Below are positions 2,106 through 6,976 of a stretch of DNA of 15,337 nt, in pieces. Source of the DNA: Lachnospiraceae bacterium (lineage in GTDB: Bacteria; Bacillota_A; Clostridia; Lachnospirales; Lachnospiraceae). Position 1 is the stretch's first letter; each line of letters starts with the position of its first letter. The notes beneath the pieces were generated by a model that did no database searches, had not been told where the DNA came from, and worked only from the letters and a program-made list of their open reading frames with translations. The stretch covers positions 1-15,337 of the forward strand of contig JAGACI010000033.1 of assembly GCA_017614185.1 (NCBI GenBank). Reading direction: 5' to 3'. Position numbers and translations under genes: made by a program.

Positions 2106-2351
2106 ATGGATTCAATTTTAGCTGAAACAATGCATGCGGTGGGACTGATACTGGGCCTTGCTTTTTTAGGCTCGGGAATAGGTCTTGGAATTCTCGGAGC
2201 AAAGGTCGCAGAGGCTATCGGAAGAAACCCCGAGACAAAGAGTGATGTTGTTCAGTCAGTAATGTTTGTTGCAATCATCATTACACTGCTTTTGCTTTTA
2301 CTTTTTGCATTTGTACTTGTACTACTGTTCTTTAATCCTTTTTCAATCTGA
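2106..2351 (+). CDS. Divergent F-type ATPase subunit c lacking the ion-binding carboxylate
   Basis: 81 residues forming a two-helix hairpin. Helix 1 (~11-38) keeps the glycine-rich packing pattern of subunit c (GSGIGLGILG, 22-31). The polar loop has R40-N41-P42-E43, matching the RQP(D/E) loop that contacts gamma and epsilon. Helix 2 runs ~51-76 and ends NPF, as in many Clostridia and Na+-type c subunits. With RNPE and NPF both aligned there is no gap to the Ilyobacter-type sequence, and the essential Glu falls on Thr60 (ACA, 2283-2285). There is no Asp, Glu or Gln anywhere in helix 2, and the Na+-ligand Gln of helix 1 falls on Leu27. Helix 2 is unusually Leu-rich. It likely forms a membrane rotor ring or anchor without ion translocation. 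The family assignment is firm; the mechanistic reading is inference. Confidence 0.9.
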   Translation: MDSILAETMHAVGLILGLAFLGSGIGLGILGAKVAEAIGRNPETKSDVVQSVMFVAIIITLLLLLLFAFVLVLLFFNPFSI

Positions 2352-2365
2352 TTGGAGATTAGCAC

Positions 2366-3181
2366 ATGGTAGCTGTGTTTATAGCGATTTTCGTAATCAT
2401 GGCGGTAATGATTTACTTCGTCACAGCATCTTTGCGGATTGTTACGGAAAATGCCAGTAAGAAGGTCAATGTATATTTCCTTTCAAAGCTTAAGGAATAT
2501 GACTCTGACTTCAAAGAAAAAATGAATAAGCTTGAGGAACTAAGAGAGTCCAAAGAGGAAGTCGAGCAGAGAATCAAGGTATTGAAGCAGGATTACAATG
2601 CCATGCAGGTGTCGAGATTTTACAAGCCTCGTCCCGTAATAAGAGATGCGTACATACCGGTTTCCCACTACATAGACAATGGCTTTTTTGCAGATTACAA
2701 GATTGCCAAAAACCTTTTGGTTATGGATAAGCGGAAGATTATCAGAACCGTTCTTGATAAATTCCCTTATCAGGGAAATCTGGAAAGATATAACGCGGCA
2801 AATTCAATTCTGAAACTTTTAAACTTCAATGCCGTTTATGATCTTTGTACCATGGAAAAAATTGAGCAGTTAAAGGTTCTTAATGAGACTCTCAAAAAGA
2901 AAGAGAGAGCGCTTCTTGGTGAATTTATTGAGCCAATGGACGAACTTGAGGAATTCGACATTCTCGATTTCATTTCATGGCTTAAGCAGACAGTGAGTAT
3001 TCAGACTCCTGTTCTGACAGCTTATCTCGGAGAAGAAGACGAGAATTATGATGACGTTGCCGATAACGTTGTCTGCATGTATGACAAGAACGTCTGCGAA
3101 GGAATCCGAATAGTGTACCAGGGCAGATTGTACGACTACAGTATCTACAAATCGAGGAAGAAGAATGAGCACATATATTGA
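2366..3181 (+). CDS. Fused F-type ATPase b-delta-like peripheral stalk subunit
   Basis: 271 residues, ATG preceded by GGAG. Residues ~2-22 are one membrane helix followed by basic residues. Residues ~30-80 are charged and coiled-coil-like (KEKMNKLEEL..., EEVEQRI), the architecture of subunit b. Residues ~85-220 are mainly helical and not clearly recognisable. Near the C-terminus, 239-262 (YDKNVCEGIRI ... YDYSI) follows the conserved end of subunit delta: E. coli delta has DKSVMAGVIIR ... IDGSV. The gene sits between c and alpha, exactly where separate b and delta genes lie in classical operons. A b-delta fusion that links the membrane to the top of alpha3beta3 fits best. Fused b-delta proteins are known in actinobacteria. 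The gene overlaps alpha by 17 bases. Confidence 0.8.
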   Translation: MVAVFIAIFVIMAVMIYFVTASLRIVTENASKKVNVYFLSKLKEYDSDFKEKMNKLEELRESKEEVEQRIKVLKQDYNAMQVSRFYKPRPVIRDAYIPVSHYIDNGFFADYKIAKNLLVMDKRKIIRTVLDKFPYQGNLERYNAANSILKLLNFNAVYDLCTMEKIEQLKVLNETLKKKERALLGEFIEPMDELEEFDILDFISWLKQTVSIQTPVLTAYLGEEDENYDDVADNVVCMYDKNVCEGIRIVYQGRLYDYSIYKSRKKNEHIY

Positions 3182-5324: not shown

Positions 5325-5331
5325 CATATAC

Positions 5332-6708
5332 GTGAGCGAGGCAGTAGGCAAGATTATATCGGTATCGGAACTTAACGTACAGGTACTGATAAATGATGAA
5401 AAGATTAAGTATCGAGACATTCTGTATACCGAATCCAAAGGAAGAAGAATTGAGTTTGAGGTAGTTGAGGAGGATGGGAATGTCATTTCCGCAATACCGT
5501 TCCAGAATGTTGTCGGATTAAAGAAGGGCCTTGATGTATATAAGGCAGAGCACGGTCTTGAGATTCAGTATAACGATGAAATCTTGGGAAAAGTATTCGA
5601 CTCCTACGGAAAGCTTTTGGATGACTCAAAGATAGAGGAAGTTCATAAGAGAAATGTCTATAACAGAAACCTGACACTTGAGGAGATAAACCTTAACGGA
5701 GGAATCCTATGGACGGGAATCAAGGTCCTTGACTTCTTTGCTCCAATGCAAAAAGGCTACAAGATGGGACTTCTTGGCGGTGCCGGTGTAGGTAAAACCG
5801 TTCTTATCAAGGAACTTATTCACAACGTATATACAGGCCTTAACTCAAACTCTGTATTTGTCGGCGTCGGTGAACGTTCAAGAGAAGGTAAGGAGCTTTA
5901 TGATGAGATGCTTTCTGCTGACCTTCTCGATAAGATGGCCGTTGTTTTCGGACAGATGGGTGAGAACTCGGCAACAAGATCAAAGGCAATCTTCTCAGGC
6001 TTAACCCTCGCGGAGTACCTTCGTGATGAGAAGAACCAGGATGTGCTTTTGTTTGTAGATAACATTTACAGATATGTACAGGCAATGAGTGAGATTAACG
6101 CAGAGCTTAGCCGTATCCCTATCGAGAACGGTTATCCCGCAAACATAGAAACAGCCATCAGTGATGTGGAGGAGAGAATCAATTCGACACCGAACGGCTC
6201 AATTACATCATTTCAGGCGATTTATATTCCTGCGGATGACGTAACGGACCAGGCAGTTCTTACGATACAGGCCCACCTTGACGGACAGATTGTTCTTGAC
6301 AGAAAGGTAGCCGAGAAAGGCCTTTACCCTGCAGTCGATGTTTTCTCAACCACCAGCAAACTTATTGATATCGACAAAATCGGTGAGAGGCACTACAGAC
6401 TTGTTGAAGAAGTCTTAAGATACTACTCACGTTACAGAGAACTTGAAGAAATCATTGCGGTTCTCGGTATAGATGAGCTTTCGGTAGCTGATACAAATGT
6501 TTTCTACCGCACAAGAAAGCTTAGAAACTATTTCACACAGCCAATGTTCGTTGCAGAAAACTACACCGGAATAAAGGGTGAACTTGTTCACATCGATGAC
6601 ATTTTGAATGATGTCGAAAACATTATTTCCGGAGCATATGACGGAATTGACGAAACCAAATTCCTTTACATAGGTAAATTCAATGCAGAAGAGTACAGCA
6701 TTTATTGA
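5332..6708 (+). CDS. F1-ATPase beta-like catalytic subunit
   Basis: 458 residues, near the usual length (~460-470). The catalytic set is complete: Walker A GGAGVGKT (149-156, K155); GERSREG (180-186), carrying the catalytic Glu181 and Arg182; Walker B DVLLFVDN (237-244, D243); and YPAVD (332-336), carrying the adenine-stacking Tyr. The sequence is otherwise divergent: 'SEINAELSRIPIENGYPANIETAISDVEER' regions replace the near-invariant housekeeping text 'SEVSALLGRMPSAVGYQP'. The DELSEED loop, which pushes on gamma, reads DELSVAD (381-387), losing two acidic residues. The C-terminal QPMFVAENYTG (403-413) is typical of beta. I infer an active ATPase. The normal length with intact catalytic residues argues against a pseudogene. 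Translation starts at GTG, seven bases after AGGAGGA, and the 3' end overlaps the epsilon-like gene by 26 bases. Confidence 0.95.
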   Translation: MSEAVGKIISVSELNVQVLINDEKIKYRDILYTESKGRRIEFEVVEEDGNVISAIPFQNVVGLKKGLDVYKAEHGLEIQYNDEILGKVFDSYGKLLDDSKIEEVHKRNVYNRNLTLEEINLNGGILWTGIKVLDFFAPMQKGYKMGLLGGAGVGKTVLIKELIHNVYTGLNSNSVFVGVGERSREGKELYDEMLSADLLDKMAVVFGQMGENSATRSKAIFSGLTLAEYLRDEKNQDVLLFVDNIYRYVQAMSEINAELSRIPIENGYPANIETAISDVEERINSTPNGSITSFQAIYIPADDVTDQAVLTIQAHLDGQIVLDRKVAEKGLYPAVDVFSTTSKLIDIDKIGERHYRLVEEVLRYYSRYRELEEIIAVLGIDELSVADTNVFYRTRKLRNYFTQPMFVAENYTGIKGELVHIDDILNDVENIISGAYDGIDETKFLYIGKFNAEEYSIY

Positions 6709-6976
6709 AGAGTATGAAATTCCATACAAAATCAGTGCAAGAGTGGTAGACCGTGAAAACGGAATGCAAAACTACGATGACATACGAATGATACGCGTCA
6801 CCAGCAAAGACTATAACATCCTTATCATGGAGGATTATATGCCTATAATCGGAGAAATTGCCGGAAGCATCGAGATGGTCACCGCATCTGACGTAATCAG
6901 ATTTGAGCCCATTCACGGTTTCTACATGCACAAGAAAAACTGTTTTTATCTCTTGATTGAGGATCACAAGTTATGA
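6683..6976 (+). CDS. Epsilon-like subunit, beta-sandwich domain only
   Basis: 97 residues, against about 130-140 for full epsilon. The segment at 46-63 (ILIMEDYMPIIGEIAGSI) follows the epsilon pattern 'lgIlpgHaPll..L.pG.i', and HGF (78-80) stands for the usual GGF. The protein stops at the end of the sandwich (FYLLIEDHKL), so the two C-terminal helices that inhibit ATP hydrolysis in bacterial F1 are absent. It follows beta as in classical operons. The start lies 26 bases inside beta, with only a weak AGG upstream, which points to translational coupling. The stop overlaps the next ATG (ATGA). Likely role: locks gamma to the c ring. Sequence similarity is weak, so position and pattern carry much of the call. 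Confidence 0.75.
   Translation: MQKSTAFIEEYEIPYKISARVVDRENGMQNYDDIRMIRVTSKDYNILIMEDYMPIIGEIAGSIEMVTASDVIRFEPIHGFYMHKKNCFYLLIEDHKL

Follow-up and report, generated by a model that had tools for sequence, protein, structure and literature searches.

Which work could be done by an F-type rotary ATPase whose genes lie between those of giant surface proteins? The question is raised by a stretch of 15,337 nucleotides from a Lachnospiraceae bacterium (assembly GCA_017614185.1, contig JAGACI010000033.1), which was analysed in full and is called the window below. It contains 11 co-directional genes with intergenic gaps of at most 32 bases, in the order end of a giant gene, S1 (encoding a surface protein of 542 amino acids, aa), c, b-delta, alpha, gamma, beta, epsilon-like, a gene for a 181-aa protein, p236, and a second giant gene. 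The motor genes that an initial annotation had placed at positions 2106-6976 (c, b-delta, alpha, gamma, beta, and epsilon-like) were recovered with the same order and boundaries.

The same annotation had proposed a second, specialised rotary ATPase that acts on an extracellular apparatus. The first part of this proposal holds, as the acid of c is lost, catalysis is kept, and the surface genes are conserved neighbours, while the coupling of the motor to the surface is a step that we infer. It is well supported that a specialised rotary ATPase, which does not move ions by the c-ring route, is encoded beside surface proteins. Our preferred and, on balance, probable reading is an F1Fo-type rotary ATPase, predicted to be incapable of ion transport, in which ATP hydrolysis turns a c-ring that moves the surface proteins of the same gene row. 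Motor and surface-protein genes recur together at 31 other loci, of which 13 belong to Lachnospiraceae or their kin ("Lachnospiraceae type") and 18 to small-genome Bacilli, and many of the carriers are animal-gut bacteria. Where loci or genomes have to be told apart, they are denoted by L and G numbers.

Rotor and catalytic core

For comparison, 11 housekeeping operons from nine Lachnospiraceae-type genomes were used, which contain genes for a, c, b, delta, alpha, gamma, beta, and epsilon as judged from length and order. In the nine housekeeping c subunits sampled (from nine of the 11 operons), the ion-binding position is invariably Glu. In contrast, it is Thr (17), Ser (7), Ala (6), or Met (1) in the 31 c subunits of the special motor, i.e. 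that of the window and those of the 30 relatives with a c gene. The acid-less c subunit of the initial annotation (T60 in the window) is thus confirmed, and the acid is gone in all 30 relatives. The second transmembrane helix (TM2) is hydrophobic where the acid is lost, and the Gln of the first (TM1), present in seven of the nine housekeeping c subunits, is found in none of the 31. The polar loop GRNPETK, the predicted docking site for gamma and epsilon, is identical in 30 of the 31 sequences and reads GRNPEVK in the remaining one.

The P-loop, the catalytic Glu, and Walker B of beta are present in 31 of 31 sequences, and the Arg finger of alpha in 29 of 29. The description of all subunits as divergent or shortened is correct in part: the alpha C-terminus and the epsilon-like protein are shorter, and beta is near full length with intact catalytic motifs. 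Only 18-30 residues follow the position of window residue 420 in 27 of the 29 alpha subunits, compared to 74-83 in housekeeping alphas, and the epsilon-like protein has 97 aa, compared to 134-142 aa. Its assignment is tentative: Pfam epsilon had zero matches among 22 members of the family, and one weak PDB profile match to an epsilon chain was obtained (E 1.6). The N-terminal segment of alpha, through which it contacts the peripheral stalk, is occupied in all 29 special alphas. One alpha of the Bacilli (L075:4888-9138, minus strand) is 1,416 aa long and carries a low-complexity, repeat-rich tail of ~970 residues.

Stator and candidate subunit a

The AlphaFold model of b-delta (predicted local distance difference test, pLDDT, 81; predicted template modelling score, pTM, 0.50) starts with a 79-residue helix, followed by further helices and C-terminal strands. 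Its first 32 Foldseek matches in the PDB are all from ATP synthase entries (best E 0.007), and most of the chains, though not 8apa_M1 and 6tdu_AM, were identified by name as delta, b-delta, or OSCP. No Foldseek PDB match was found at E 0.001, no Pfam match exceeded its cut-off, and Pfam OSCP matched only two of 37 family members (best E 0.014). In some carriers among the Bacilli (L049, L054, L061, G800, and G763), the b-delta matches cross one or two stop codons.

The set had been described as lacking subunit a. This holds with respect to the Pfam model alone and is otherwise probably wrong, because the gene adjoining epsilon-like encodes a 181-aa membrane protein with an a-like predicted fold. 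The three best PDB matches of its model (pLDDT 88, pTM 0.81) are Fo subunits a, with probabilities of 0.85-0.91 and E values of 0.17-0.30, which are not significant. A comparison of the family with subunit a by sequence profile was likewise not significant, and PF00119 did not match the family. The a-like protein has no invariant Arg; basic residues recur at positions 108 (19 of 29) and 164 (17 of 29). On the basis of the model, we regard the protein as a candidate divergent subunit a. Taken together, an a-like fold after epsilon and a c subunit without its acid suggest that a whole F1Fo machine seems to be present that is unable to carry ions.

In one genome (G149), an a-like segment (residues 4-154, 17.6 bits), which is devoid of the first 39 model positions, and p236 (residues 167-390, 119.8 bits) form one chain of 400 aa (L083:14776-15978); the fusion was seen in this genome only and may be a sequencing error. 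The adjoining gene (L083:15980-17377) encodes a protein of 465 aa, in which another p236-like domain is found.

Surface proteins and conservation of the gene row

Searches with b-delta yielded 55 homologues at E≤0.01, and 138 at E≤0.001 with a profile (120 listed). A scan of species genomes led to 15 loci: nine from bacteria named Lachnospiraceae bacterium, one from Kineothrix alysoides, one from a Bacillota bacterium (L003), and four from Bacilli/Candidatus Pelethosoma. In the family of K. alysoides (G015), four of 299 genomes have strong full-length matches, including the known G015 and G002 (six matches at E≤0.001), and matches of this kind were obtained for 19 of 241 genomes in the order to which G013 belongs, including the known G012 and G013 (24 at E≤0.01). 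The weak matches of G089, G212, and five genomes of the latter order do not extend beyond the first 121 of 268 positions, and these genomes were left out of the carrier set. Addition of 14 of the 17 new Bacilli stretches and of both new Lachnospiraceae-type stretches resulted in the set of 31 loci.

Genes were scored as present on matches of at least 40 bits. Alpha, beta, and b-delta occur at all 31 loci, c, gamma, and epsilon-like at 30, a-like at 28, and S1 and p236 at 25 each. Several of the missing genes are due to contig ends, but L064 has no S1 despite ~7.9 kb of upstream sequence. S1, c, b-delta, alpha, gamma, beta, epsilon-like, and p236 are all present at 13 of 13 Lachnospiraceae-type loci, and gamma is the last motor gene at ten Bacilli loci. 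The identities between the window and L002 are 97-99% for c, alpha, and beta (98.9% for alpha, 97.2% for beta), 90-92% for b-delta and gamma, 83% for epsilon-like, 82% for S1, and 74-75% for a-like, p236, and the giant. At unsaturated dS, the ratios of nonsynonymous to synonymous substitution rates (dN/dS) against L002 are 0.019-0.085, with dS itself being high (0.9-2.8). The sequences indicate that the motor genes are under purifying selection, and that the conservation of the row is far beyond chance.

The annotation of anchored surface proteins on both flanks was verified by their N-terminal hydrophobic segments. The upstream giant has 2,010-2,279 aa and a single N-terminal hydrophobic anchor in 11 Lachnospiraceae-type relatives. 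At 20 of the 25 S1-bearing loci, a giant (1,694-2,279 aa) whose N-terminus contains a hydrophobic segment is encoded on the outer side of S1, and the remaining five have ≤~1.2 kb of sequence on that side. It is thus found at 20 of 20 S1 loci with more than ~1.2 kb upstream, and the conserved neighbourhood, on which the initial annotation had staked its proposal, withstood this test. Full-length versions of the downstream giant comprise 3,663 aa in K. alysoides and 3,717 aa in Lachnospiraceae bacterium G11 (G002), with hydrophobic segments at both the N- and the C-terminal ends. The genes beyond it are metabolic and transport genes in the former genome, while in the latter a surface-type protein of 1,386 aa follows 1.3 kb on.

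S1 consists of an N-terminal segment, a juxtamembrane ectodomain, a Gly-triplet rod, and an Fn3-like end. Comparisons of ectodomains without the anchor revealed that the upstream giant has a common ectodomain with S1 (hhalign E 2.8e-9; reversed control 0.0016 over 8 columns) and with p236 (E 1.7e-5; reversed control 0.25). S1 and p236 align with E 8e-6 over 46 columns at full length; without the first 45 residues the value is 0.015, no better than the reversed control. The two giants have a later domain in common (E 2.7e-5; control 0.04), and hhalign gave no match of the downstream giant to the S1 and p236 ectodomains. The upstream giant of K. alysoides matches Collagen (1e-12) and Big_3_2 (2e-6), and its downstream giant has no domain match at E 0.01. 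The initial GLUG/Fn3 designation is weak, both matches being under the Pfam cut-offs.

In the Lachnospiraceae-type relatives, runs of at least eight Gly-x-x triplets are present in S1 (13 of 13) and in the upstream giant (11 of 11). The respective numbers for the Bacilli are 0 of 12 (one of these S1 sequences being partial) and 0 of 9, some proteins being Gly-rich without a repeat. The rods, which are confined to the Lachnospiraceae type, lie at about residues 250-345, and their spacing from the membrane is similar in S1 and the upstream giants. The idea of a wall-spanning rod, with rod-less Bacilli being wall-less, was rejected because cell-wall genes are present in the carriers among the Bacilli: MraY scored above its threshold in 31 of the 34 carriers, with all 21 Bacilli among them, and a transpeptidase was found in 34 of 34. 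The features of the window are listed in Table 1.

Table 1. Features of the 15,337-nucleotide window
Feature	Position	Strand	Remarks
Upstream giant, C-terminal end	3..425	+	Open reading frame (ORF) open; 66% identity over 141 residues to a 2,122-aa ORF in L001
S1, 542-aa membrane-anchored surface protein	445..2073	+	fn3 E 5e-4, below cut-off
Gly-x-x rod, 25 triplets, S1 residues 250-324	1192..1416	+	
c subunit, 81 aa, without ion-binding acid	2106..2351	+	PF00137 38.1 bits, cut-off 24
c polar loop GRNPETK, predicted gamma-epsilon dock	2220..2240	+	
c residue T60, position of housekeeping ion-binding Glu	2283..2285	+	
b-delta fusion, predicted peripheral stalk	2366..3181	+	AlphaFold and Foldseek
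alpha, 443 aa, N-terminal helix present, shorter C-terminus	3165..4496	+	PF00006 241 bits, cut-off 29.5
gamma, 265 aa	4522..5319	+	PF00231 83.6 bits, cut-off 39.9
beta, 458 aa, catalytic	5332..6708	+	PF00006 216 bits, cut-off 29.5
beta P-loop GGAGVGKT	5776..5799	+	
Epsilon-like, N-terminal domain only, 97 aa	6683..6976	+	Position, pattern, weak profile match
181-aa membrane protein, candidate divergent subunit a	6973..7518	+	Predicted fold
p236, 236-aa membrane-anchored surface protein	7515..8225	+	Ectodomain common to upstream giant
Downstream giant surface protein, open at window end	8247..15335	+	

Proposed function and comparison with known systems

If the special motor is a second ATPase, a separate housekeeping operon can be sought in the same genomes. 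A PF00119 subunit a is encoded elsewhere in 13 of 13 Lachnospiraceae-type carriers, a count that does not include the genome of the window, and the claim of a second ATPase is not refuted for this group. None of the 21 carriers among the Bacilli has a PF00119 subunit a or a second alpha/beta pair (PF00006 over cut-off); the completeness of these genomes is not stated, but the locus of G763 lies on a contig of 1,256,952 bases. One extra PF00006 fragment at a contig end in G867 was read as part of the same beta. Two genomes, G007 and G009 (L086, L087, L093, and L094), contain two housekeeping-type F-ATPase operons in addition to the special one, i.e. three per genome, and the two housekeeping c subunits of G009 differ, one having the TM1 Gln and the other not.

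A catalytic core and a c-gamma docking site that are kept, an ion site that is lost, and a conserved outer apparatus fit a machine that spends ATP on mechanical work outside the cell. In the mechanism that we propose, alpha3beta3 would turn gamma-epsilon and the c-ring, the epsilon-like protein being predicted to be devoid of the inhibitory C-terminal domain. According to the structural model, b-delta may form the peripheral stalk and, together with the a-like protein, the putative stator. p236 might sit outside on the stator, as its fusion to an a-like segment in one genome would suggest. The rotor would turn, pull, or remodel S1 and the giants, which would extend outwards and, in the Lachnospiraceae type, contain Gly-triplet rods.

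Several other functions were weighed against this reading. An intact catalytic core, the presence of a c-ring gene, a subunit a elsewhere in every Lachnospiraceae-type carrier, and recurrent basic residues in the a-like protein would also be compatible with an ordinary ion-pumping F-ATPase that borrows the housekeeping subunit a or uses other ion residues. This is improbable, however, as all 31 c subunits have lost the acid in a hydrophobic TM2 and have no TM1 Gln, and as no PF00119 gene is available for borrowing in the 21 Bacilli, one of them represented by a 1.26-Mb contig. The loss of the acid and the strong divergence of the a-like gene could likewise be expected for a decaying duplicate of the housekeeping operon. 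Yet alpha and beta are nearly identical to those of L002 despite synonymous sites at or near saturation, and the row is conserved over two distant groups, so that we give decay hardly any credence.

A more serious competitor, albeit still an unlikely one, is a motor that drives export, assembly, or folding of the giants, similar to a secretion ATPase, instead of moving them in place. Giants of ~1,700-3,700 aa adjoin the motor, and alpha and beta match FliI/SctN models, as F1 subunits generally do. The scores are far under the cut-offs, however (beta 212 bits against 619 for the curated flagellar/type III export FliI model TIGR03496), no obvious channel protein is encoded in the row, and c, gamma, and the stator, which an export ATPase would not need, are kept. 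The loss of ion transport leaves the machine without a known output, and the membrane-anchored outer proteins could relay binding; the ring and these proteins may thus constitute a surface sensor or clutch that regulates ATP use or signals binding without mechanical output. We consider this unlikely to be correct, because purifying selection on a complete rotary core with its catalytic residues points to a source of power more than to a signal. With mechanical work on the surface proteins as the preferred reading, the membrane rotor and the stator seem to be kept and ion transport to be lost in bacteria with cell-wall genes. The carriers include the named strains Kineothrix alysoides KNHs209 and Lachnospiraceae bacterium G11, and in the small-genome Bacilli the special motor is the sole alpha/beta ATPase found. 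If true, rotor mechanics would be separable from ion transport, and a tractable system for the transfer of F1 torque to the cell surface would be available.

Coupling of such a motor to surface structures had initially been called previously undescribed, which does not stand as written, because precedents exist in mycoplasmas, where F1-like motors adjoin surface machines (PMC12994834, PMC11864180). The Type 3 ATPase, the partner of MIB-MIP, has no c, b, or delta, and has 12-transmembrane (12-TM), 19-kDa, and 87-kDa proteins, and its alpha is described as having no N-terminal helix (PMC12994834, PMC3369863); its deletion or a change in Walker A disables the protection conferred by the surface partner (PMC12994834). 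The Type 2 G1-ATPase is the gliding motor of Mycoplasma mobile, and GliD has been hypothesised to derive from a b-delta fusion (PMC11864180). In the mycoplasma motors, c and b are gone, and the force path across the membrane is described as unknown (PMC11864180, PMC12994834).

For the phylogenetic analyses, four of 71 beta rows and four of 69 alpha rows were dropped, and the concatenated tree comprised 47 rows. The special alpha and beta rows are united in a single clade (100/100) with a long stem, apart from the housekeeping, Type 2, and Type 3 rows. Within it, the Lachnospiraceae-type rows stand together and are drawn inside the Bacilli variety in trees whose root was not inferred, so that the system may have been transferred between the groups. 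The special, Type 2, and Type 3 rows group against all housekeeping rows in the alpha tree (98/98) and in the concatenated tree (100/100), in both cases with long stems and a warning of the tool about long-branch joins. The beta tree joins the special rows with Type 3 only (96/79, not starred), and tests of beta trees in which groups were held together gave p values of 0.059 (special and Type 2) and 0.11 (all three).

Like Type 3 F1-like X0, the system provides extra alpha, beta, gamma, and epsilon subunits beside surface proteins in cells with a housekeeping F1Fo. It differs in having retained c, b-delta, and an a-like gene, in its other partners, and in its separate alpha/beta clade. Beta scores 380.7 bits with the curated Type 3 model NF045934 (cut-off 570), no 12-TM gene was seen in the row, and the profiles of the Type 3 12-TM, 19-kDa, and 87-kDa proteins did not significantly match those of a-like, b-delta, or c. 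At the Type 3 loci L076-L081, the 19-kDa and epsilon-like proteins are alike by profile (hhalign E 2e-5, probability 75%). With Type 2 it shares an F1-like motor that is associated with large surface proteins, but the beta of Type 2 (698-751 aa in six rows) carries a long extension at its N-terminus, whereas beta is a plain 458-aa protein here. Accordingly, its match to the curated Type 2 model NF045858 (369.7 bits, cut-off 850) begins at model position 242, without the extension. The alpha N-terminal segment is filled in none of five Type 2 and none of eight judgeable Type 3 alphas, a ninth Type 3 sequence having unalignable letters.

The subunit set and order, as well as the intact catalytic core, are nearly those of housekeeping F1Fo, in contrast to the lost acid of c, the fused b-delta, the short epsilon, the surrounding surface genes, and a far-diverged a-like gene that is placed after epsilon. 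For the curated N-ATPase (alternate F1F0) model TIGR03305, beta is below the cut-off (397 bits, cut-off 752). The b-delta protein resembles mycobacterial b-delta, which is among its Foldseek and VIA-align matches, in combining a membrane helix, a stalk helix, and a delta part in a single chain; the latter has up to 445 residues, compared to 271 here, and no significant sequence similarity was seen. Neither a rotary ATPase with Fo parts kept and an ion-dead rotor nor a surface-working rotary ATPase outside mycoplasmas was found in the literature, mostly that outside subscription journals. Surface work by F-ATPases is already known from mycoplasmas; what would be new here is a form in which the Fo parts are kept and the rotor is ion-dead. 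We tentatively suggest, as a possible but doubtful extension, that a complete F1Fo stripped of ion transport has become a mechanical, ATP-driven rotor for giant fibres in walled bacteria and is, at the same time, a c-ring-keeping relative of the stock of the gliding and antibody-cleaving mycoplasma motors. The best reading is that the motor works like the mycoplasma Type 2 and Type 3 F1-like ATPases, yet is a member of neither.

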